Positions 10,204-49,289 of a DNA stretch of 64,000 bases are shown here, piece by piece. Source of the stretch: Ruminococcus sp. GTDB lineage: Bacteria; Bacillota; Clostridia; Oscillospirales; Ruminococcaceae. The stretch covers positions 49,055-113,054 of the forward strand of contig JAFXVT010000022.1 of NCBI GenBank assembly GCA_017534835.1. The letters are read 5' to 3'. Every line of letters starts with the position of its first letter. Position 1 is the stretch's first letter. Below the pieces are notes generated by a model. It was not told the DNA's origin, made no database searches, and was given only the letters and a program-made list of their open reading frames with translations. The translations under genes and the position numbers were made by a program.

Positions 10204-10368
10204 TACCGCTGCCGAAAAAAGGTCAATCAGCACAAAAACCTAAGCCTATAGGTGCACGTTTTTGGCATTTCGGCATCTGATGATGCAGCTGACGGCTGAC
10301 CGGAAATCAGCATACACGTCATATTTTGCGAAGTTCGGGGCGAGAACGCAAAAAATCTGCAAAAGCTA

Positions 10369-10397
10369 TTGACAATTCAGAGCGGAAGTGTTATCAT
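10369..10397 (+). promoter_or_regulatory. Distal promoter of the transport operon
   Basis: TTGACA, 17-base spacer, TATCAT. The bases just upstream (GCAAAAAATCTGCAAAA) recur before the proximal promoter at 10595, so the two look like diverged copies. The leader to the first gene would be about 370 nt. Confidence 0.65.
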
Positions 10398-10456
10398 AAT
10401 AGCCGTAGGAACTGTATTATCATTATTAGTACGGATACAGCGGATGTATAGCATAC

Positions 10457-10474: not shown

Positions 10475-10594
10475 ATATTCTTGCGCAGCTCTGTCTGCCT
10501 CAGACGATGCCGCGGTACTGTCGGCTCTTTTCTGTTCCCGACTGAAAATATGCGAAAAATCGGGAAAAGAAATGCAAAAAAATTGCAAAATCCA

Positions 10595-10623
10595 TTGACA
10601 CTTTATCGTCAATAGTGTATCAT
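10595..10623 (+). promoter_or_regulatory. Proximal promoter of the transport operon
   Basis: TTGACA, 17-base spacer, TATCAT: the same -10 variant and spacing as the distal promoter, and preceded by a similar A-rich GCAAAA block. The leader to the first gene is about 145 nt. Confidence 0.7.
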
Positions 10624-10774
10624 AATTAACGTAAAGAATGTACTGCTGATAGTTAAATGATAAAAATTTCTTGAAACTTCGTCTTTTTTGGCTTTTAAAG
10701 ACACTTATATATGAAAGCACTTTTTTTCAGGCAAAGAACAAAAGAATTTTACAGCAAAGAGGGTTAGCAAAGCT

Positions 10775-11659
10775 ATGAAAAAGAAAAACAGCCAGTGCGG
10801 AAGGAGAGGCGAGCGCGTTTTCAGCAATGTTTGCGTACTGCCAAGCTTTATAGGCGTGCTTATATTCTTCCTGATACCGTTCTGCATAGTCATCTACTAT
10901 TCTCTTATAAATAATCCGATCTCGGCACAGTTCGTAGGGCTTGACAACTTCAGGCGGCTATTCCAGACAGTTGCTTTCCGGAAGGCGGCGGCGAATACCG
11001 CGGCATTCTCGCTCATCTCGGTGCCGCTCGCAGTTATCATCTCACTGTGGCTCGCAACGCTGCTTGAGCGGAATATCCCCTACAAGAGCGTGATACGCAC
11101 ATTCTTCCTCAGTCCGATAATGGTGCCGACTGCTTCTGTCGTACTCGTATGGCAGGTGCTCTTCCACAACCACGGAACTATCAACCAGCTCCTTGAAACG
11201 TTCGGCTTCTCCGGCGTCGACTGGATGAAGTCCAGCTACGGTCAGCTCATTATAATAGTAATGTTCCTGTGGAAGAACGTCGGATACAATATGATACTGT
11301 TTATGTCAGCGCTCGCTGCAGTCCCGAGGGACATTCTCGAGGTCGCGGAGCTCGAGGGCGCAGGAAAGATATACCAGTTCTTCCACATCAAGCTCAGGTA
11401 TCTTTCGCCGACTCTCCTGTTCGTGCTGATACTTTCGATGATAAACTCATTCAAGATATTCCGCGAGGTCTACCTGCTGACGGGCGATTATCCATATGAT
11501 AAGATGTATATGCTCCAGCACTTTATGAACAACACGTTCAACAGCCTCGACTATCAGAAGCTCTCGTCAGCGGCGGTGCTCTTCTCGCTCGTGATGATAG
11601 TCATCATCGCCATACTCCTTATCGCCGAGGAGATATTCGGAAAGGATGTGGAGAGCTGA
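10775..11659 (+). CDS. Sugar-type ABC transporter permease (MalF/UgpA-like)
   Basis: A 294-residue protein with six predicted membrane spans. The cytoplasmic EAA loop is clear around residues 190-210 (EVAELEGAGKIYQFFHIKLR), where the ATPase docks. It corresponds to the first permease of carbohydrate importers (CUT1 type). The start lies a little after a GAGGG site and follows two tandem promoters. The stop overlaps the start of the second permease by one base (TGATG), so the two are coupled. No ATPase gene occurs in the operon; in Firmicutes a shared MsmK/UgpC-type ATPase encoded elsewhere often serves, which is inferred here. Substrate unknown. Confidence 0.92.
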   Translation: MKKKNSQCGRRGERVFSNVCVLPSFIGVLIFFLIPFCIVIYYSLINNPISAQFVGLDNFRRLFQTVAFRKAAANTAAFSLISVPLAVIISLWLATLLERNIPYKSVIRTFFLSPIMVPTASVVLVWQVLFHNHGTINQLLETFGFSGVDWMKSSYGQLIIIVMFLWKNVGYNMILFMSALAAVPRDILEVAELEGAGKIYQFFHIKLRYLSPTLLFVLILSMINSFKIFREVYLLTGDYPYDKMYMLQHFMNNTFNSLDYQKLSSAAVLFSLVMIVIIAILLIAEEIFGKDVES

Positions 11660-12612
11660 TGAGCAGACATACCAAAAAGCGGATCTTCAACATCATTATA
11701 ATGGTGTTCGCCGGGATAGCCGCGATACTCTTCCTGATGCCGACGGTGCTGACCATTGCAAACTCGTTTATGACATCGAACGAGATAACCGCCAACTACG
11801 GCGCGATGATAGGCAATATGACCGACGACAAAAAAACGTTCATATCCGAGAACGTCAACCTCAAGTTCATCCCCGACAAGGTAACATTCGACCAGTATGC
11901 CGGCGTGCTGCTGAAAAGCCCCGATTACCTGCTGAAATTCTGGAACTCTGTGATACTCACTGTCCCGATAACAGTATTTCAGGTGCTGCTTGCGATACTC
12001 ACAGCATACGGCTTTTCGAGGTATCCGAACAAGTTCAAGTCGATAATATTCTTTGCTTACATAATACTGCTGATAATGCCGTATCAGGTAACGCTCGTCC
12101 CGAACTTTCTCGTTGCCGACTTCATCAAGGACAACGCCGCTTCGATAGTTTCCGCAGCTCCCGATATGATAGCGGACAAGGTGAACAAGTCTATCTCGAA
12201 TATGCGCTGGGCGGTCATCCTGCCGGGCATATTCTCTCCGTTCAGCATATTCCTGCTGACGAAGGTGATGAAGCGCATACCTGTTTCCTATGTCGAAGCA
12301 GCAAAGCTCGACGGTGCGAGCGAGCTCCAGATACTCGCAAGGATACACGTTCCGCTCTGCAAGGGCGCGATAGTTTCGATAGCGATGCTCGTTTTCATCG
12401 ACTACTGGAATATGGTCGAGCAGCCTCTCGTGCTTATGAAGGACGCCGACCTGCATCCGCTCTCGGTGTTCCTCTCGCAGATAAACGCCGGCGACATCGG
12501 TCTTGCATTCGCTGTCGGAACAGTATATATGATACCGACGATACTGATGTTCCTCTACGGTGAGGATTACCTCATCGAGGGCATAACCTACTCCGGCGGT
12601 ATAAAGGGATAA
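11659..12612 (+). CDS. Sugar-type ABC transporter permease (MalG/UgpE-like)
   Basis: A 317-residue partner of the preceding permease, starting inside its stop codon. It has six membrane spans and an EAA loop (EAAKLDGASELQILARIHVP) near residues 212-232. Compared with ordinary MalG-type permeases there is an enlarged extracellular segment after the first span (roughly residues 30-95) and another extra segment near residues 155-185. These could contact the unusual partner proteins encoded downstream. Same operon as the adaptor, the MacB-like protein and the binding lipoprotein. Confidence 0.9.
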   Translation: MSRHTKKRIFNIIIMVFAGIAAILFLMPTVLTIANSFMTSNEITANYGAMIGNMTDDKKTFISENVNLKFIPDKVTFDQYAGVLLKSPDYLLKFWNSVILTVPITVFQVLLAILTAYGFSRYPNKFKSIIFFAYIILLIMPYQVTLVPNFLVADFIKDNAASIVSAAPDMIADKVNKSISNMRWAVILPGIFSPFSIFLLTKVMKRIPVSYVEAAKLDGASELQILARIHVPLCKGAIVSIAMLVFIDYWNMVEQPLVLMKDADLHPLSVFLSQINAGDIGLAFAVGTVYMIPTILMFLYGEDYLIEGITYSGGIKG

Positions 12613-12642
12613 CGCCGAAATATGATAAAGGAGAACGACACT

Positions 12643-14379
12643 ATGGCTGAAAATATAAAAGACGCCAAGGATATAAAGGGCGACGAAGAAATAAAAGACC
12701 CGAAAAAGAAGCGCGAGATCATCAAGACCGTCATCATCATCTTCCTCGCAGCGATGCTGGTGCTGACATTCTTCTCGAACACGATAATGAACCGCTCTCT
12801 CGCGGAGATAACCACCGAGCGTGTGAACTCCGGCAAGCTGACCGAGCGTCTGCGTGCGAGCGGAGCCGTGATGTCCAATCAGAGCTGGGACGTGACTGTT
12901 GAAGGCAACAAGACCATCGACACACTGATGTGCAAGAACGGTCAGGAGGTCAAGAAGGGCGATGTGCTCTTCACGGTCAGCGGAAGCGACAGTGAAGCTC
13001 TCACAGCCGCCGAGCAGACTTACTCACAGCTTGAGCTCGAATATCAGAAGGCTATACTCACTCCCCCTGCCGATTATTCCTCCGAGAATCAGGCGATAAA
13101 GAACGCACGCGAGGACCTCGCAGCCGCTATCAGCAAGCGCGATAACGCCGTTGCCGGTCAGAGCGGAGTTCAGGCTGCAAAGGCAAAATATGAGAACGAC
13201 AAGTCGCAGAGCGCGTACTACACCAAGCTTATGACAAAGCTCCAGACCGTCATCGCAGCGATAGACTCGGACGAATACTTCACAGCTCCTGCTGAGTATA
13301 CAGGTGACATTATCGCGCTCAAGAGCGCCGCGGACACTGCTGAATCCGATTACAGCGCATCAGCACAGATATACACCTCCCTCACGGAAGAGGGCTCAAC
13401 GGCGACCGAGGCTGAGATAACAGCCGCAAGGAACGATATGGAGACGAAGGAAGCTGCACGCAATGCCGCACGCAGCGAATACGAAACAGCAAAGATAAAC
13501 CTCCGCGCCGACATCGCAGCACAGCTTGCGGACGCCGAATCAAACGCGGACTGGTATGCGGCACAGGTGAGCGCCTACGAGAGCGACAACGCCGGCGCTT
13601 CAATGAGCATCGAGGAGCTCAACGCCGACATCACCGCAAAGCAGCGCGTTCTTGAGGAGCTCATAAACACCCTCAGCAAGACACAGAAGAACGACGAGAA
13701 CACCCAGAAGCTCAACAACCTCGATCTCGACGCCAAAAAGAAGGAGCTTGACAAGGCAAAGGAAAAGCTCGACAAGCTCAAGGCAGAGAATGAGGGCACG
13801 GAGATAGTTTCCAAATACAGCGGAGTTGTTACGAATATCCTTGTAAAGCCCGGCGATACAACTATCCCCGATTCGCCCGTTATGACAGTGAACCTCGCAG
13901 ATGAGGGCTACACCGTCGAGGCTTACGTAGAGGCTGACAAGACCAAGAAGATAAAGAAGGGCACCTCCGCAGACGTTGTGAACAACTGGAACGGCGATAT
14001 ATCAGCCGTTCTCACCGACATAAAGAATGATACGACCCCCGGCTCAAAGAACCGCATACTCGTCTTCTCCGTAACAGGAGATGTAGATCCCGGCTCATAC
14101 CTCGACCTTTCTATCCCGTGCGGAAGCGGCAACTACGATTCGATAGTTCCCAAGAACGCTCTCGGTCACGACAAGGACGGCGATTTCGTCCTCACAGTCG
14201 CTTCCAAGAGCTCTCCCCTCGGCAACAGATACTACGCCGAGCGCGTAGCTGTTCAGATACTTGCCTCCGACGAGACTTCAAGCGCTGTTTCCGGCGACCT
14301 CGGCTACGGAGCATACATCATAACAGCTTCCAGCAAGCCTGTCGAGCCGAAGGATCAGGTCCGTATGAAGGATAAATAA
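12643..14379 (+). CDS. HlyD/MacA-like membrane-fusion (adaptor) protein
   Basis: The start is set at the ATG giving MAENIKDA, nine bases after AGGAG; an ATG seven codons earlier has no ribosome site. The product is 578 residues. It has a charged cytoplasmic N-terminus, one membrane span near residues 27-45, then a half lipoyl/barrel-sandwich motif (GNKTIDTLMCKNGQEVKKGD). A long alpha-helical coiled-coil hairpin of about 270 residues rich in Ala/Glu/Lys follows, then the second half (SGVVTNILVKPGDTTI) and beta-barrel domains. This is the layout of efflux adaptors. Finding one inside a sugar-import operon is unexpected, and its role there is unknown. It may form an extracellular scaffold across the thick cell wall. 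Confidence 0.82.
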   Translation: MAENIKDAKDIKGDEEIKDPKKKREIIKTVIIIFLAAMLVLTFFSNTIMNRSLAEITTERVNSGKLTERLRASGAVMSNQSWDVTVEGNKTIDTLMCKNGQEVKKGDVLFTVSGSDSEALTAAEQTYSQLELEYQKAILTPPADYSSENQAIKNAREDLAAAISKRDNAVAGQSGVQAAKAKYENDKSQSAYYTKLMTKLQTVIAAIDSDEYFTAPAEYTGDIIALKSAADTAESDYSASAQIYTSLTEEGSTATEAEITAARNDMETKEAARNAARSEYETAKINLRADIAAQLADAESNADWYAAQVSAYESDNAGASMSIEELNADITAKQRVLEELINTLSKTQKNDENTQKLNNLDLDAKKKELDKAKEKLDKLKAENEGTEIVSKYSGVVTNILVKPGDTTIPDSPVMTVNLADEGYTVEAYVEADKTKKIKKGTSADVVNNWNGDISAVLTDIKNDTTPGSKNRILVFSVTGDVDPGSYLDLSIPCGSGNYDSIVPKNALGHDKDGDFVLTVASKSSPLGNRYYAERVAVQILASDETSSAVSGDLGYGAYIITASSKPVEPKDQVRMKDK

Positions 14380-14391
14380 GGCGGTGCGGCA

Positions 14392-15522
14392 ATGAGAGTG
14401 AAAAAACGACTGCTCTATGCCGTCATAGCTGGTCTGAATGCGGTATCGCTCACTGCGGCGCTCGCACTGACCATCGCCGGCAGCTCGATAGCGCGAACGC
14501 AGAGCTACAACCGCGCGGCTCAGAAATGGGACCGCGACGGCGAGAGTTCCCAGATAAGCTGCTATTTTTCGGACGATGCCGGCTTCACTACAGACGGCGT
14601 GTACGCCCTGAGGGCTCATCTGAACAAAACGCTTCAGGACGCCGTTTCACGACCGGACGGCAAGACCCCCGAGATCCCCGATGCCTACAGCACACCGATA
14701 GGCAGCGATCTTATAACAGGTGATAATACAGGACAAGGTGAAGCTGAGCTCACTGCCGTCGGCGGAGAATTCTTCCTCTTCCGCGATTTCAGGCTTCTCA
14801 GCGGTGCTTATTTCTCCGACAGGGACCTTATGCAGGACGGCGCTGTCATCGAGCGCTCGCTCGCGTGGACACTGTACGGCTCTGCGAATGTCGCCGGTCA
14901 GAATATCTATATCGGCGGCGTTCAGTTCTACATCGCCGCGGTCATCGACGACCCGACCGACAAGTATCAGAAGCGCACGATAAACGAGCTCCCGAGAGTT
15001 TATGTTTCCTATAAGGGCGCAGAACAGCTCCCGAGCGCGAGGTATTCCTCGCAGGAGCAGGGCTATGGCGGCTATACAGGCGGCGATGCTCCGGCTCAGC
15101 TCAGGAAGGTGAGCTGCTATGAATGCATAATGTATGACCCCGTAGAGAATTTCGCATACTCCACCGTCAACAAGTACCTCAAGGATATGTATAAAGGGAA
15201 GTACAAGGCGGTGAACAATACTAAGCGTTTCACTTCATCGGCAATGGTAAAGGCTTACAAGAAACGCTCAGACTACGCCGTCCGCAAGGACACGATAACG
15301 TATCCCTACTGGGAAAACGCCTCACGTATCGCAGAATTCAAGATCTCGCCGCTGTATTACATACGCCGGCTCTGCTTCGTGATACCGGCACTGACCTCTG
15401 TATGGCTGCTGTGGGTGCTCTTCTGCCTCGCAAAGAAGGGCGGAAAGGCTCTCATATCGACCATTTCAGATAAATATACAAAGGCTGCATACAGCCGAAG
15501 ACAAAAGAAAGATAACATATAA
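14392..15522 (+). CDS. MacB-like extracytoplasmic membrane protein
   Basis: A 376-residue protein with an N-terminal membrane span (residues 8-30), a large extracytoplasmic domain, and a second span near residues 325-348 followed by a basic tail. The middle (GAVIERSLAWTLYGS, then VAGQNIYIGGVQFYIAAVI) matches the pattern of the MacB periplasmic core domain found in FtsX/MacB-type permeases. The usual three C-terminal spans are reduced to one, so it is not a complete permease. It starts 12 bases after the HlyD-like gene, recalling the MacA-MacB pair, but there is no associated ATPase domain. Function in the operon unknown; a structural partner of the adaptor is the simplest guess. Confidence 0.7.
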   Translation: MRVKKRLLYAVIAGLNAVSLTAALALTIAGSSIARTQSYNRAAQKWDRDGESSQISCYFSDDAGFTTDGVYALRAHLNKTLQDAVSRPDGKTPEIPDAYSTPIGSDLITGDNTGQGEAELTAVGGEFFLFRDFRLLSGAYFSDRDLMQDGAVIERSLAWTLYGSANVAGQNIYIGGVQFYIAAVIDDPTDKYQKRTINELPRVYVSYKGAEQLPSARYSSQEQGYGGYTGGDAPAQLRKVSCYECIMYDPVENFAYSTVNKYLKDMYKGKYKAVNNTKRFTSSAMVKAYKKRSDYAVRKDTITYPYWENASRIAEFKISPLYYIRRLCFVIPALTSVWLLWVLFCLAKKGGKALISTISDKYTKAAYSRRQKKDNI

Positions 15523-15557
15523 ACTCAACACATATCGTAAGGAAAGGAACTAATTTG

Positions 15558-17978
15558 ATGAAAAACACAATCTCAAGAACAGCTGCTGCCTCTATTGCCG
15601 CAGCCTGCCTGCTCTCAGCTGCATCGTGCTCGCTCCCCGGAGGCGGGAACGGAAGCGGCAGCGGAGCGGAAAAGCCCAAGAAGACAGCCTCTGAGGTGAT
15701 CAAGCACTCCTACAGCGCCGAGCAGTTCGGAAGTTCGCCTGACTGTCAGTACATCGACACTATAATGCGCCTCGGTGATACCGACAATATCCTCGTCAGA
15801 GGCAACTCAGACGGCTCAAGCACATCTCAGATATTCATCACCGACGTCAGCTTTGAGGAGTTCAAGCCCCTCGAGGTAAAATACGATGCAGGTGAGAATT
15901 CAGAGGTCTACCTCAATTCTGCCGCCGCTCCCGACGGAACTATCTACGTTGTTGCTGCTATAACCGATTACGGCGACCAGAAGCTCCCCGACTGGAACGA
16001 CCCTGAGTTCGACTATGACAGCTTCAACTGGGACGCTTTCAATGCGGCTGCGACCAACACGACCGTACTCTATACCTTCGATGCATCAGGAAAACAGCTC
16101 ACCAAAGCTGAGGTAGAGCTTGAAGGCGTTGTAGACCCCGAAGCTGAAGGCAGCATCGCTTCCTACATCGGCAACGTTTACCCCATCGACAAGGATCACG
16201 CACTTGCATATATCGGCGGCGAGAAGGATACATACATCATCATCAACGCTGACGGAACATTCGGCGAAAGCGTTTCATTCCCGTCCGACTTATGGCTCGG
16301 GCCTATGTGCTCGACTCCCAGCGGCGACCTCGCCTTCACATCATGGTCCGGCGATTGCGCAACTATCGGCATTGTCAACAAGGACGATCTCAAGGTCAAG
16401 GCTGATGCTATCAAGCTCACCGATCTCAAGAATGAGAGCGTGAACACCCTTATCAAGGGCGACGGCGAATTCGACTACTATATCTCCACATACAGCGGAC
16501 TCTTCGGCATAAATCCGGACGGCTCGTCATCCGAGCTCATCAACTGGTCAGATTCCGACCTCGACGGCGACAGCATACGCGGTCTCGTCCAGCTCGGCAA
16601 TAACGAGTTTGCGATATACGTCTACAACTACTCAGACACGGCGATGAACGGCTTCTACCGCCTCACAGAGCGCGATGCTTCCGAGCTCGCAGACAAGACC
16701 CTCATCACTGTTGCAGTAGTGTACAGCGATTCGTCCTTCAAGTCTGAAGTGAGCAGCTTCAACAGAAGCAGCGACAAATACAGGATAAAGATAAACGATT
16801 ACAGCGAATACTACGAATGGGACGAGGAGAGCGAGAAATACCTCAACACTCCCTCAAAGCAGCTCAAGCTCGACATCATCGCAGGCAATTCGCCTGATAT
16901 GCTCTATTTCAGCGAGCCTGCTGCAATAAAGGGTCTCACCGGCAAGGGCGTCTTCGTCGACCTCTACGATTTCCTCGGCAAGGACGGCGGACTCTCAAAG
17001 GACGACCTCGTTCCGCCGGTCCTCAAAGCTTGCGAGGAGAACGGAAAGCTCTATTCGATCACTCCCTCACTCAGTATGTCAACAGCTGCTGTAAAGACTA
17101 AATACTGCGACAAGGAAAACTGGACCATTGATGATCTCATCGCTGCCTACAATAAGCTTCCCGCAGGTGCAAGGCTCACTCAGTGGAGCAACAGCAAGCT
17201 TTCTGCTTTCCAGTACCTCGTTTCAAATATGAGCTTTGTTGACTATGCTGCCGGCACCTGCAATTACGACAGCGACGAATTTGTCAAGATACTCGAATTC
17301 GCGAACCAGTTCCCCGAAGAGGAAGAGCAGCCCGACTGGGAGCATATGACCGAAGAGCAGACGGAGAAATACTACATCGACGAGCAGACAGTTCTCAGGA
17401 ACGACAAGGCACTCATCGGCAACTTCGACTTCTACGACTTCAGAGAATATAACAAACTCAGACAGGCAATGTTCGGCGAGGACATAACACTTGTCGGCTA
17501 TCCCTCCGCAAACGGCTGCGGAACACTTGTACAGCAGACAGCCAGCTTCGCTATCCTCAGCGATTCACCCAACAAGGACGAATGCTGGAAGTTCCTCTGC
17601 CGCTTCTTCACAGAGGACTATCAGGAGAAGAACAGCTGGTCCGTACCTGCTCTCAAGTCAGCATTTGAGAAGAAGCTCGATGAGTCTATGGAGGACCCTT
17701 ACTGGATCGACGAAAACGGTGAAAAGCACTACGAAAAAGGACAGTACAGCCTGGGTGACGAGACTATCGAGTACGACAACCTCTCAAAGGAGGACCGCGA
17801 CTACATAGAAGACCTTATCCTCAACGCAAATGTATCAGGTATGCAGATATGGGACAACGATGTTCAGGCGATCGTTGACGAAGAGGTACAGGCATTCTTC
17901 GCAGGCGAAAAGTCCGCAAAGGAGACTGCTGAAATAATTCAGAACCGCGTATCCATTCTGGTGAGCGAGCAGTCATAA
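15558..17978 (+). CDS. Lipoprotein: propeller-like domain fused to solute-binding domain
   Basis: The start is the ATG nine bases after GGAAAGGA; a TTG one codon earlier is ignored. The product is 806 residues with a lipoprotein signal (cleavage before Cys24, LLSAASC). Residues ~50-380 consist of repeated beta segments (for example APDGTIYVVAA, TPSGDLAFTSW, YISTYSGLFGINPDGSSS), which suggests a beta-propeller. From about residue 385 (LITVAVVYSDSSFKSEVSSFN) the sequence looks like a family-1 extracellular solute-binding protein, including the DIIAGNSPDMLYF pattern. It is probably the substrate receptor for the two permeases. Combined receptor/propeller proteins of ~800 residues are uncommon compared with the usual 400-450. 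Last gene of the operon, followed by a terminator. Confidence 0.82.
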   Translation: MKNTISRTAAASIAAACLLSAASCSLPGGGNGSGSGAEKPKKTASEVIKHSYSAEQFGSSPDCQYIDTIMRLGDTDNILVRGNSDGSSTSQIFITDVSFEEFKPLEVKYDAGENSEVYLNSAAAPDGTIYVVAAITDYGDQKLPDWNDPEFDYDSFNWDAFNAAATNTTVLYTFDASGKQLTKAEVELEGVVDPEAEGSIASYIGNVYPIDKDHALAYIGGEKDTYIIINADGTFGESVSFPSDLWLGPMCSTPSGDLAFTSWSGDCATIGIVNKDDLKVKADAIKLTDLKNESVNTLIKGDGEFDYYISTYSGLFGINPDGSSSELINWSDSDLDGDSIRGLVQLGNNEFAIYVYNYSDTAMNGFYRLTERDASELADKTLITVAVVYSDSSFKSEVSSFNRSSDKYRIKINDYSEYYEWDEESEKYLNTPSKQLKLDIIAGNSPDMLYFSEPAAIKGLTGKGVFVDLYDFLGKDGGLSKDDLVPPVLKACEENGKLYSITPSLSMSTAAVKTKYCDKENWTIDDLIAAYNKLPAGARLTQWSNSKLSAFQYLVSNMSFVDYAAGTCNYDSDEFVKILEFANQFPEEEEQPDWEHMTEEQTEKYYIDEQTVLRNDKALIGNFDFYDFREYNKLRQAMFGEDITLVGYPSANGCGTLVQQTASFAILSDSPNKDECWKFLCRFFTEDYQEKNSWSVPALKSAFEKKLDESMEDPYWIDENGEKHYEKGQYSLGDETIEYDNLSKEDRDYIEDLILNANVSGMQIWDNDVQAIVDEEVQAFFAGEKSAKETAEIIQNRVSILVSEQS

Positions 17979-18024
17979 ACAACGACATCTACATTTTCAT
18001 AAACTCCACCTCCTTATGAGGGAA

Positions 18025-18059
18025 CAGGCTATCCGTAAATGGATAGCCTGTTTCTTTTT
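18025..18059 (+). terminator. Terminator of the transport operon
   Basis: A perfect 10-bp stem (CAGGCTATCC / GGATAGCCTG), 6-base loop, then TTTCTTTTT. Confidence 0.9.
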
Positions 18060-27000: not shown

Positions 27001-27113
27001 AACAGTAGTAATAAACTATTTGTAATATTTAAAACAAATAACGGAAGGAGAACTGAGTCTTATAATCATATCTCATTCACAAACCGCATTTTCAAACTAA
27101 GGAGTTGATTTAT

Positions 27114-27722
27114 ATGAAAAAAACTGTAATGACTATTGCTATACTATTAGCAAGCGCAATGGCAACGCCATTTAATGCGGCTGCAATTGTACCTCAGCCT
27201 CAAAAAACAGTTGAAGAATTCATAGAGATATACCGAAATAGTGAAGATCAGTTTGATTTCAATCTTGATGGCGTGGTCGATACTATAGATGCGAAGTGTG
27301 TACTGACACGCTATTCAGAATTAGTTGTAGGAAAAAACACTAATGTCGTGGTTGTAGATGAATATGAATCTGAAAAAGGCGAACAGTCCATATTTGAATT
27401 TACTGACAAAATGCGTGAAAAGATAGATGAATTTGGCGACATGGATGGAGACAGCATTATTTCATCAATAGATTCATCCTATCTCCTTGCAGCCTATTAC
27501 AGTGATAAAGAGGCTGGCGATGTCAATATCGACGGAAAACTTGATGCAAGAGATGCTTCAAAAATGCTGTCATTCTATTCCGCTAATTCCGTAAACATTC
27601 AAAGCGACTACGTCACTGAAAAGAATATGGAATACCTCGGTGACCTCAACGGTGACGGCAAGGTTGATTCTACTGATGCTTCATATGCTCTTTTGGAGTA
27701 TTCAAAAATAGCTACCGAATAA
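27114..27722 (+). CDS. Secreted protein made only of dockerin-like calcium repeats
   Basis: The start is the ATG giving MKKTVMTI, nine bases after AAGGAG. The product is 202 residues with a signal peptide ending near PFNAAA. The mature part carries four EF-hand-like dockerin half-repeats: DFNLDGVVDTIDAKCVL, DMDGDSIISSIDSSYLL, DVNIDGKLDARDASKML and DLNGDGKVDSTDASYALL. That amounts to two dockerin-like pairs with no catalytic or binding module. Dockerins dock enzymes onto cohesins in cellulosomes; a protein of dockerins alone could bridge cohesins or act as a regulator. The first two repeats are less canonical. It is divergent from the PadR operon and followed by a terminator. Confidence 0.8.
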   Translation: MKKTVMTIAILLASAMATPFNAAAIVPQPQKTVEEFIEIYRNSEDQFDFNLDGVVDTIDAKCVLTRYSELVVGKNTNVVVVDEYESEKGEQSIFEFTDKMREKIDEFGDMDGDSIISSIDSSYLLAAYYSDKEAGDVNIDGKLDARDASKMLSFYSANSVNIQSDYVTEKNMEYLGDLNGDGKVDSTDASYALLEYSKIATE

Positions 27723-47522: not shown

Positions 47523-49289
47523 ATGGAAAGAATGATGTTGATAGACGAACTAAAGCGCAAAAATGAGATACTGCCTAATGAATATGACGGAACCTACCGC
47601 TCGGTGCGCAAGGCGGTGGAATACTACGCAAAGCTGAGGAGGATGTCGGTCATCGACCACAGCGACCTCGACCTGCTCTACTTCCTTTCGCTCGGCATAT
47701 GGAAGGGCGAAAAACGCGACTGGAAGCCGTATATCCAGAAGTGTCACCTGCTGCATAACGATAAGCTCCTGCTCGAAACGACGGTCGACAGGGTGTGGAG
47801 CAAGGACTCGAGAAAGCAGTTCAGCCACGCTCCGAAAAAGCAGGAAATGGAGTTCCTGACGGAGCCGGTCGCATTCAGGAACTTGCCTGTCTCAGCTGCT
47901 CCCGACGCTATACAGCACTTTTTCAAGATGTGCATAAACCTTTCGGGGCTCGAGATAGACAGCAAGCTCTATGACACGGTCGAGGAAATGCTCGCTTCAC
48001 AGACCGGCGAACTGAAAATGCCGGTGTATGTCCTGTCGCGTATACTTCACTGCCTCAAGCCGTTCACATTCCCTATCCTCGGTGAAGAGACGACCGGCTC
48101 GCGGATATTCGGCGCGCTCGGGATAAAGCTGGAGGATATTGACGATATTTCGCAGTATGTCCCGAATTGCCGCAAGATACTCGAATTCCGAAGCTCACAT
48201 TTCAAATTCAAGAATATGCGCGTTTTCGATATTATGTCGTGGGAGCTGCTGAAGCTGCACAGCGAGCCTGTGCAGTCCGCAGAGCATACCGAAGCTCCTG
48301 AGGTCCAGCCGCTGAAGCGGTTCTCGGCTCCGCTGAACCAGATATTATACGGTCCTCCCGGTACAGGAAAGACCTACAATGTCGTGAGGTATGCGGTCGA
48401 GCTCATCGAGGGGAAAAAGCTCCCCGACAGCGAGAGCTATGCCGCTATAAAGGAGAGATACGAGAAGTATGCCTCCTTGGGGCAGATAAAATTCACAACG
48501 TTCCACCAGTCGCTCAGCTATGAGGAATTCGTCGAGGGTATCCGTCCTGTCGTTGTTGACAAATACGGCAACGATTCCAACGTTGCCCACTCTGATACAA
48601 CGGTCATCTACCGCCCGTACAACGGCGTTTTCAAGTCGCTGTGCGAGAAGGCGGCAAAGTCGCCGTATATGAACTTCGTAGCTATCATCGACGAGATAAA
48701 CCGCGGAAATATCTCGCGTATCTTCGGCGAGCTCATCACTCTTATCGAGGAGTCGAAGCGCGGCACGAAGGTCATCCTCCCGTATTCTCAGACGGAATTT
48801 CACGTTCCCCCGAATCTGTATATCCTCGGCACGATGAATACCGCCGACCGCTCTATCGCTATGCTCGACATCGCGCTCAGACGCAGGTTCCACTTCATCG
48901 AGATGATGCCGCAGCCCTCTGTACTCGGGGACTGCGACGGCGTAGACCTGTGCGAGCTGCTGACCGCGCTGAATGAGCGCATCGAGTATTACTACGACCG
49001 CGAGCACGCTATCGGTCATGCCTATTTTATGAATGCCTACGGCTGCATACAGAGCATTTCCGAGCTCAGAGAGGTGTTCTCAGCGAAGATAATACCGCTG
49101 CTGCAGGAGTATTTCTTCGACGATTACGAGCGGATAAGGCTGATACTGAACGACGATAATACCTTCATCGAATGCGTTACGCCGAAGTACGTCCGGCATT
49201 TCGATTCCGGACAGAAGCTCTACCGCCTCGGCGACCCGATGAAATGGAACAGGGAGCACTTCATCCGCATATACAGCGACAATCCCTGA
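47523..49289 (+). CDS. McrB-like AAA+ NTPase (type IV restriction)
   Basis: A 588-residue protein. The N-terminal ~260 residues are a helical domain of unknown specificity, not the classical 5-methylcytosine-binding fold that I can recognise. The AAA+ module has Walker A GPPGTGKT (277-284), Walker B VAIIDEINRGN (386-396) and the McrB-type MNTADRS signature (438-444), with arginine-finger segment LRRRFHF. McrB proteins form rings that translocate on modified DNA and activate McrC. It is followed 15 bases later by an McrC-like gene, but that protein lacks its nuclease, which questions the restriction function. Confidence 0.9.
   Translation: MERMMLIDELKRKNEILPNEYDGTYRSVRKAVEYYAKLRRMSVIDHSDLDLLYFLSLGIWKGEKRDWKPYIQKCHLLHNDKLLLETTVDRVWSKDSRKQFSHAPKKQEMEFLTEPVAFRNLPVSAAPDAIQHFFKMCINLSGLEIDSKLYDTVEEMLASQTGELKMPVYVLSRILHCLKPFTFPILGEETTGSRIFGALGIKLEDIDDISQYVPNCRKILEFRSSHFKFKNMRVFDIMSWELLKLHSEPVQSAEHTEAPEVQPLKRFSAPLNQILYGPPGTGKTYNVVRYAVELIEGKKLPDSESYAAIKERYEKYASLGQIKFTTFHQSLSYEEFVEGIRPVVVDKYGNDSNVAHSDTTVIYRPYNGVFKSLCEKAAKSPYMNFVAIIDEINRGNISRIFGELITLIEESKRGTKVILPYSQTEFHVPPNLYILGTMNTADRSIAMLDIALRRRFHFIEMMPQPSVLGDCDGVDLCELLTALNERIEYYYDREHAIGHAYFMNAYGCIQSISELREVFSAKIIPLLQEYFFDDYERIRLILNDDNTFIECVTPKYVRHFDSGQKLYRLGDPMKWNREHFIRIYSDNP

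Follow-up and report, generated by a model that had tools for sequence, protein, structure and literature searches.

Conserved linkage of CUT1-type importer permeases with a MacA/MacB-like module in Ruminococcaceae, and its possible role in import

Membrane fusion proteins (MFPs) and MacB cores are known mainly as parts of efflux systems, and their appearance in an operon of sugar-importer permeases raises the question of what such parts do there. The operon concerned is located in a stretch of 64,000 nucleotides from Ruminococcus sp. (GenBank assembly GCA_017534835.1, contig JAFXVT010000022.1, forward-strand positions 49,055 to 113,054), which is referred to here as the window. The reading that we favour, with a rough probability of 0.55 and judged from sequence, is that the operon and its relatives encode an ATP-driven CUT1 importer of which the MacA/MacB-like module is a fixed and integral part, rather than an efflux pump.

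Direct reading of the window places five genes on the + strand between positions 10775 and 17978, encoding permease A, permease B, an MFP, a MacB-like protein, and a solute-binding protein (SBP) lipoprotein, hereafter called the receptor. An earlier note on this DNA had described two coupled permeases followed at gaps of 30, 12, and 35 bases by the three other genes, which was reproduced exactly, and its description of the EAA loops as intact agrees with a by-eye reading of both permeases. Pfam matches of all five proteins exceed the curated cut-offs, while none of the closest NCBIfam models (UgpA permease, GlcU permease, and RND_mfp) was matched above its curated cut-off. The coding features of the operon are:

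10775..11659, + strand: permease A, CUT1 type (MalF/UgpA-like); PF00528 (BPD_transp_1) at 6e-18, six spans by hydropathy
11339..11410, + strand: EAA (ATPase-docking) loop of permease A; EVAELEGAG..., with E at 11339, intact by eye
11659..12612, + strand: permease B, CUT1 type (MalG/UgpE-like); BPD_transp_1 at 4.8e-11, start overlapping the stop of permease A
12295..12366, + strand: EAA loop of permease B; EAAKLDGAS..., with E at 12295, intact by eye
12643..14379, + strand: MFP, an adaptor of the MacA/HlyD/EmrA type with one N-terminal span; HlyD_3 at 4.6e-7, gap of 30 after permease B
12763..12792, + strand: membrane-proximal MFP signature LTFFSNTIMN, a motif shared by cassette MFPs
12988..13791, + strand: predicted alpha-hairpin between the lipoyl halves of the MFP; 288 residues between the lipoyl glycines
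14392..15522, + strand: MacB-like protein, composed of a span, the MacB periplasmic core, and a span, with no nucleotide-binding domain; MacB_PCD at 7e-9, gap of 12 after the MFP
15558..17978, + strand: receptor lipoprotein with an N-terminal propeller-like and a C-terminal solute-binding domain; SBP_bac_1 at 1.3e-6, residues 430-680, gap of 35
15675..16733, + strand: N-terminal beta-propeller-like domain of the receptor; family-profile matches to designed propellers

The operon contains two BPD_transp_1 permeases with EAA loops and an SBP_bac_1 lipoprotein, as expected of a CUT1 importer, and, as the earlier note had stated, gene reading and Pfam detected no ATPase gene among the five. Of a MacAB efflux pump, the MFP and the MacB periplasmic core are present and the MacB nucleotide-binding domain and four-span FtsX-type domain are missing; Pfam listed no FtsX or ATP-binding cassette (ABC) domain in the MacB-like protein or the window's gene set. 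Profile searches nevertheless dispelled the suspicion that the adaptor and the MacB-like protein might have unrelated folds, since both proved to be homologues of efflux parts (HlyD_3, RND_mfp, EmrA, and MacA for the former, MacB and YknZ for the latter). The MFP matches RND_mfp at 8.9e-24 (84.0 bits, below the cut-off of 94.9) and its family profile matches solved EmrA, MacA, and hemolysin D chains, while the MacB-like family profile matches solved domains of MacB (1.2e-8) and YknZ (1.9e-4). By hydropathy the MacB-like protein has two spans in the window, and the same number is found at 101 of 124 loci; in divergent cassettes (L150, L151, L153, L168, L171, L174, and L177-L182) it has five to six spans and 407-485 residues, so that its membrane domain has apparently been reduced in the gut lineages.

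Conservation of the gene set is the main support for treating it as one system. In the family, 197 genomes were searched for the MacB-like protein, on which the assignment of cassette presence among them rests, and the protein was present in 25 of these genomes. Long stretches were retrieved for 24 loci from other genomes, and 20 of these (L032-L051) have the canonical cassette, including one on a contig that begins downstream of the permeases (L042) and two with the MFP and MacB-like genes in swapped order (L048 and L050). One further locus (L052) is a divergent cassette with the permeases in last position, and three (L053-L055) are ordinary MFP-MacB loci without cassette permeases. Permease A is 56-81% identical in 19 other family genomes and 41% identical in the divergent locus.

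Loci L032-L051 and L138-L157 were found through the MacB-like protein and do not test its linkage, for which L056-L135, the best 80 loci from a scan of named genome contigs with an alignment of permease A, form a valid test. Permease B and the MFP were encoded at all 80 loci, the MFP starting 0.9-1.9 kb past permease A, and the MacB-like protein at 75; at the other five the contig ends within 2.9 kb of permease A. The hosts include Ruminococcus (with R. flavefaciens 007c and ATCC 19208), Lachnospiraceae, Butyrivibrio, Parablautia, and others. One contig in this set (L072), labelled Alistipes senegalensis and derived from a metagenome-assembled genome, carries a Ruminococcus-like cassette with 74% identity in permease A, and is probably a mislabelled bin. 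A phylum-wide draw of 398 genomes yielded permease A above threshold at nine places in 8 of them, each place with an MFP, and in a class-wide search with the MacB-like profile 55 of 391 genomes had matches at 1e-10, the weakest of which probably represent ordinary MacB. Both searches reached cassettes in other orders and classes; MacB-like relatives could be confirmed in none of the viral contigs.

In total 132 loci were entered in the tally and three (L042, L142, and L152) were set aside because the contig was cut and held no permease A frame, leaving 129; SBP-only or cut stretches (L169, L170, L172, and L173) and ordinary MacB loci (L053-L055 and L154) were kept out of it. Across these 129 permease A loci, permease B and the MFP were both found 129 times, the MacB-like protein 124 times, an SBP within 9 kb 108 times, and an MsmX-type ATPase 11 times. 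Permease A scored 461-534 bits in the best 80 named loci and 296-365 bits in the 13 most divergent, versus 79 and 114 bits for two ordinary CUT1 permeases in these stretches. Moreover, protein distances at 106 loci correlate between permease A and the MFP (r 0.87) and between permease A and the MacB-like protein (r 0.89; pairs 0.86-0.93), the best of 500 label shuffles reaching 0.23, a result obtained with no control gene and of a size that shared descent alone could yield. A chance neighbourhood can be rejected on the presence of the MFP beside permease A at 129 of 129 loci, as can a chimeric or strain-specific operon on the recurrence of the cassette in the family, in named contigs, and in other classes. 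The gene order, of which the earlier note had proposed that conservation be checked, thus extends far beyond the source strain, and the association of importer permeases with an MFP and a MacB-like protein is firm and broad.

The ATPase appears to be supplied from outside the operon. The genome encodes a single OB_MalK ATPase of 379 residues, located alone on contig C18, of which the best structural matches are 7x0q (6.8e-175) and then MsmX. Entry 7x0q is taken to be the Clostridium thermocellum ATPase of an mBio 2022 paper, as its code is consecutive with those of CbpB and CbpC. According to the available portions of that paper, the C. thermocellum sugar-transporter ATPase gene is standalone, growth on cellobiose and on Avicel depends on it, and in another Clostridium several transporters share a homologue (PMC9601137). 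A MalK/MsmX-type ATPase gene adjoins the cassette at 11 of the 129 loci: at ten of them (L112, L118, L151, L153, and L175-L180) it comes immediately behind the MacB-like gene, and in L052 it follows permease B; the L175 product has ABC, OB_MalK, and TOBE domains. Because of this standalone MsmX-type gene and the 11 loci with an abutting one, the operon most likely lacks an ATPase gene because it depends on a shared MsmX-type enzyme. The MalK-type ATPase expected of a CUT1 importer is in any case available in the genome, through the standalone gene.

The earlier note had regarded an adaptor in a Gram-positive cell as an oddity in itself. That premise fell away, as RND_mfp-type matches (E<=0.001) occur in 60 of 61 family genomes, 22 of them above the curated cut-off; the odd feature is the importer partner of the adaptor, not the adaptor. 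Cassette MFPs are recognizable by the signature LTFFSNTIMN, found in 114 of 129 versus 0 of 29 ordinary MFPs, with its serine invariant in 114 non-redundant rows; these counts use the wider of two patterns, the narrower one giving 104 of 125 and 0 of 4. Conservation is highest in the span region (0.66), intermediate in the lipoyl and barrel parts (0.51-0.53), and lowest in the hairpin (0.30), and since the span region is the most conserved part, a specific membrane partner of the cassette MFP is suggested.

The earlier note had also proposed an importer with an extracellular scaffold that holds a large receptor out through the cell wall. Part of this stood: importer, adaptor, and MacB core are conserved as a unit, the hairpin is compatible with the proposal, and the receptor is a large two-domain protein. 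The length of the hairpin is not specific to the cassette, however. The lipoyl-to-lipoyl spacer comprises 288 residues in the window MFP, a median of 304.5 (range 107-506, n=102) in cassette MFPs, and 53-382 in ordinary MFPs of the family, counted where both lipoyl glycines were aligned (102 of 125 cassette MFPs, four of the 129 being too short, and 28 of 29 ordinary MFPs). With these ranges overlapping, unusual hairpin length was rejected as proof of wall crossing; long hairpins are widespread in gut lineages and have no diagnostic value. Spacers are short in several deep members (107 residues in L177-L180, 143 in L151 and L153), but not in others (285 in L171, 370 in L052). For the hairpin, the MFP family profile gave weak matches to the coiled coils of SMC6, RAD50, and myosin.

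The receptor carries a lipobox of which Cys24 is invariant in 20 aligned rows, and a lipobox-like motif occurs in 86 of the 108 nearest cassette SBPs. Its N-terminal 350 residues have no Pfam match in the window, and a profile of this domain had as best PDB matches v31Bagel8 (2.2e-8) and nvBagel4 (1.4e-4), which we take to be designed propellers. A PQQ_2 match at 3.5e-5, below the cut-off, was found in the receptor relative of L175. The receptor is probably composed of a beta-propeller and an attached binding domain. The PDB matches were obtained through the family profile only, the receptor sequence alone yielding no PDB match at E<=0.01 by phmmer; the best solved match of the receptor profile is CbpC (8e-40).

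In its own genome the receptor has many paralogues. The receptor profile gives twelve rows there, two of them in one frame, which makes 11 proteins: that of the cassette itself and ten encoded elsewhere, versus one MFP match and one MacB-like match. The ten orphans are located on contigs C15, C20, C23, C48, and C62 (L225-L230), on none of which a BPD_transp_1 (PF00528) permease was found; the assembly consists of 67 contigs, and as the receptor genes of C62 and C48 are located close to the ends of their contigs, these may have distant neighbours. Across the 197 family genomes the receptor family (E<=1e-45) was detected in 21 of 21 with a canonical cassette versus 2 of 176 others (Fisher 3e-26, with non-independent genomes and the cassette's own receptor included), the genome with the divergent cassette L052 (G145) being placed among the 176; receptor numbers are lower bounds, as up to five candidates were scored per genome. 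No receptor was found beside the cassette in G028, G139, G136 (with only 3.4 kb of downstream contig), and G090, yet all four have orphans.

The importer as we envisage it would be assembled as follows. Permeases A and B would form the channel for a solute, probably an oligosaccharide, with the shared MsmX-type ATPase docking on their EAA loops. The MacB-like protein, reduced to a periplasmic core on two spans, would be placed beside the channel, and the MFP would oligomerise on this core as MacA does on MacB, possibly as a hexamer, its long hairpin barrel extending into the wall. The Streptococcus MFP, a MacA homologue (Spr0693 system), is described, in the available parts of the source, as a hexameric tube with a modelled reach of ~154 angstroms above the membrane (PMC5768738). 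Propeller lipoprotein receptors, the operon's own and some ten encoded elsewhere, may deliver ligand to the single permease pair via this platform, and some receptor relatives, joined to anti-sigma-like or BlaR1-type parts, may report ligands to transcription. Taken to its end, this leads to a SusCD-like mode of Gram-positive uptake, in which one permease-MFP-MacB tower would serve many interchangeable, trans-encoded propeller receptors and receptor relatives with anti-sigma-like one-span parts or BlaR1 would signal to transcription which glycan had been captured. A receptor fold, and perhaps a wall-spanning docking platform, would then be common to transport and sensing; this wider scheme is offered tentatively, as the odds are clearly against it.

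Several observations weigh against the importer reading. Transporter C of C. thermocellum (cbpC) is a divergent relative of the cassette. Genome G540, with an identical CbpC, encodes CbpC, two permeases, an MFP, and a 473-residue MacB-like protein in one cluster, in which a single further gene separates CbpC from permease A. As far as the available text of the paper goes, the CbpC pocket is blocked by a loop and inactivation of transporter C had no effect on growth on glucose, cellobiose, or Avicel (PMC9601137), and by analogy the receptor may not bind sugars. The transporter C cluster may itself be defective, which would be a possible reason for the absent phenotype, because its MFP is split over two reading frames in G540 (L168:4134-5487); a short partial CbpC copy lies nearby. 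In addition, G123 and G133 have receptors and no cassette permease was found in them, both genomes being incomplete (82% and 75%), and no receptor was found within 9 kb of the cassette in 21 of 129 loci, some of which are cut by contig ends. In a quick tree of 52 permeases, two outgroup branches of which are very long, the distribution of the ATPase label requires five to six changes, which points to repeated gain or loss of the ATPase gene. Given the deep members with short adaptors and MacB-like proteins of five to six spans, reach into the wall may not be ancestral. Finally, 158 families were recorded in 122 cassette-flanking proteins, and no glycoside hydrolase (GH) family ranks in the 25 commonest.

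This last result also bears on the proposal of the earlier note that the importer takes up oligosaccharides released by a cellulosome. It derives from 122 of 129 same-strand flanking proteins, seven having been dropped for their length or as cassette genes; flanking proteins above 900 residues, such as the dockerin-leucine-rich repeat protein that flanks the cassette in L039, were left out of this sample. Without a hydrolase theme among the commonest flanking families a general cellulosome link was not borne out and is rejected. Cellulases do adjoin two cassettes from a single family, as GH9 with a carbohydrate-binding module (CBM3) in L138 and as GH5 in L148. Next to orphan receptors, 146 of 154 neighbouring proteins were scanned and 8 of these 146 are dockerin proteins; an excess over cassette neighbours cannot be claimed, as the comparison covers the 25 commonest families on each side. 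The cellulosome idea is thus weakly supported for the cassette, and plant glycans and wall-derived fragments both remain as candidate ligands. Elsewhere in the window, positions 27105-27722 encode a small protein with two dockerin-like repeats, a motif match that suggests a cellulosome in the organism.

The main rival to the importer reading is a sensing complex, in which glycans or wall fragments outside the cell would be perceived by the cassette and receptors, and flux through the permeases would be minor or serve mainly to reset the sensor. We consider this possible, at well below even odds. It draws on 43 receptor stretches (six own and 37 from relatives, several of them short contigs) with 55 SBPs, 14 of which lie within 3 kb of a gene for an extracytoplasmic function (ECF) sigma factor, six of these 14 in the own genome. 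In the own genome the order sigma, one-span protein, receptor is found in L225, and two such sigma/one-span pairs in L229. In five loci from two genomes of one genus (L243, L247, L248, L254, and L258) the sigma gene runs straight into a fusion composed of a short N-terminus, one span, and a receptor region with an SBP domain, and in L253:5293-8838 a BlaR1-type M56 domain (1e-43) is fused in frame to an SBP_bac_1 domain (1.1e-7). The one-span parts match no Pfam family and would, by position and topology, be anti-sigma-like. A cassette gene stands beside a receptor stretch only in L267, where an MFP cut by the contig end is probably the rest of the cassette of G194; L245 has a weak, 20-bit MFP match. 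The blocked CbpC pocket and the missing growth phenotype of transporter C, in the portions of the source available (PMC9601137), would suit a sensor, as would the genes directly upstream of two cassettes, for a D-alanyl-D-alanine carboxypeptidase (Peptidase_S11; L177:10418-11485, with a response regulator near this cassette) and for a histidine kinase (L179:11569-12711). Two full permeases in all 129 loci and the MsmX-type ATPase abutting some of them would be superfluous for a pure sensor, however, and Sigma70_r2 is found in 11 of 146 orphan-receptor neighbours versus 3 of 122 cassette neighbours, which is not significant in a like-for-like comparison (p 0.096; a p of 0.036 came from mixing two Pfam models). 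The case for sensing is carried by the fusions, not by a sigma excess.

Alternatively, the operon could encode two independent machines, an importer and an MFP/MacB-like export or secretion device energised by an ATPase from elsewhere. The homology of the MFP and the MacB core to efflux parts and the ordinary MFP-MacB pairs in the family (L053-L055) speak for it. We regard it as unlikely, as the set lacks a MacB-type ATPase or FtsX domain by Pfam, the MFP accompanies permease A without exception, the ATPase that joins the cassette is of the MalK type, and none of 30 ordinary MFP loci showed a permease match within stretches of 2.7-4.0 kb. Least probable, and in our view very unlikely, is a conduit for long polysaccharides modelled on the Sphingomonas alginate superchannel, with the chain passing down the MFP barrel as far as the permease. 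It would fit the long hairpins, the size of the receptor, and the cellulases or dockerin proteins near some loci; against it stand the short adaptors of several deep members and the lack of a hydrolase family among the commonest flanking genes.

Two promoter-like sites and a strong terminator hairpin appear to bound the operon as a unit:

10369..10397, + strand: sigma-70-like promoter candidate, upstream copy; 11/12 consensus matches, spacer 17, TG before the second hexamer
10595..10623, + strand: sigma-70-like promoter candidate, proximal copy; 11/12 consensus matches, spacer 17
18018..18057, + strand: predicted intrinsic terminator hairpin; 17 pairs, with -33.9 kcal/mol and z -6.0 for a 66-base segment

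The hairpin was not listed by a consensus scan. By eye, the promoter regions at 10345-10420 and 10570-10645 look like diverged duplicates, with an A-rich stretch preceding TTGACA in both.

If the importer reading is true, the MFP/MacB module would be a platform of general use that import systems can also employ, and a testable answer would be at hand to the role of adaptors where an outer membrane is lacking. Should a single hub take many orphan receptors, a transporter could be assigned to some of the sugar-binding proteins of gut Ruminococcaceae that now count as 'orphan', with consequences for the question of which bacterium eats which fibre.

Among known systems, transporter C of C. thermocellum is the closest, with an SBP, two permeases, an MFP, and a MacB-like protein in one cluster. 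It differs in that CbpC, with 460 residues, is too short for an N-terminal propeller, that its MacB-like protein has about six spans instead of the two in the window, and that the SBP gene occupies another position. The legend of Fig. 1 of the mBio 2022 paper, in the portion available, mentions an 'acra' gene among the C. thermocellum sugar-transporter clusters (PMC9601137), which is a partial prior notice of the importer-adaptor association; this legend apart, a literature search, covering its sources in part, found no paper in which a CUT1 importer has an adaptor and a MacB core among its subunits. With MalFGK2-type CUT1 importers served by MsmX or MsmK the cassette shares the permease families, the EAA loops, the SBP_bac_1 receptor, and the single MsmX-type ATPase, and the window receptor adds a propeller-like domain. 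With the MacAB, YknXYZ, and Spr0693-0694-0695 pumps it shares an MFP and a MacB periplasmic core encoded side by side, whereas the window set lacks a MacB ATPase, its MacB-like protein has two spans where those pumps have four, and the partner is an importer. Finally, Bacteroides SusCD systems employ many surface receptors, some of which are coupled to ECF sigma/anti-sigma signalling. The likeness is one of analogy, the cassette side having likewise many receptors with some sigma-linked relatives, whereas its hosts have no outer membrane or TonB and the hub would be an ABC importer.

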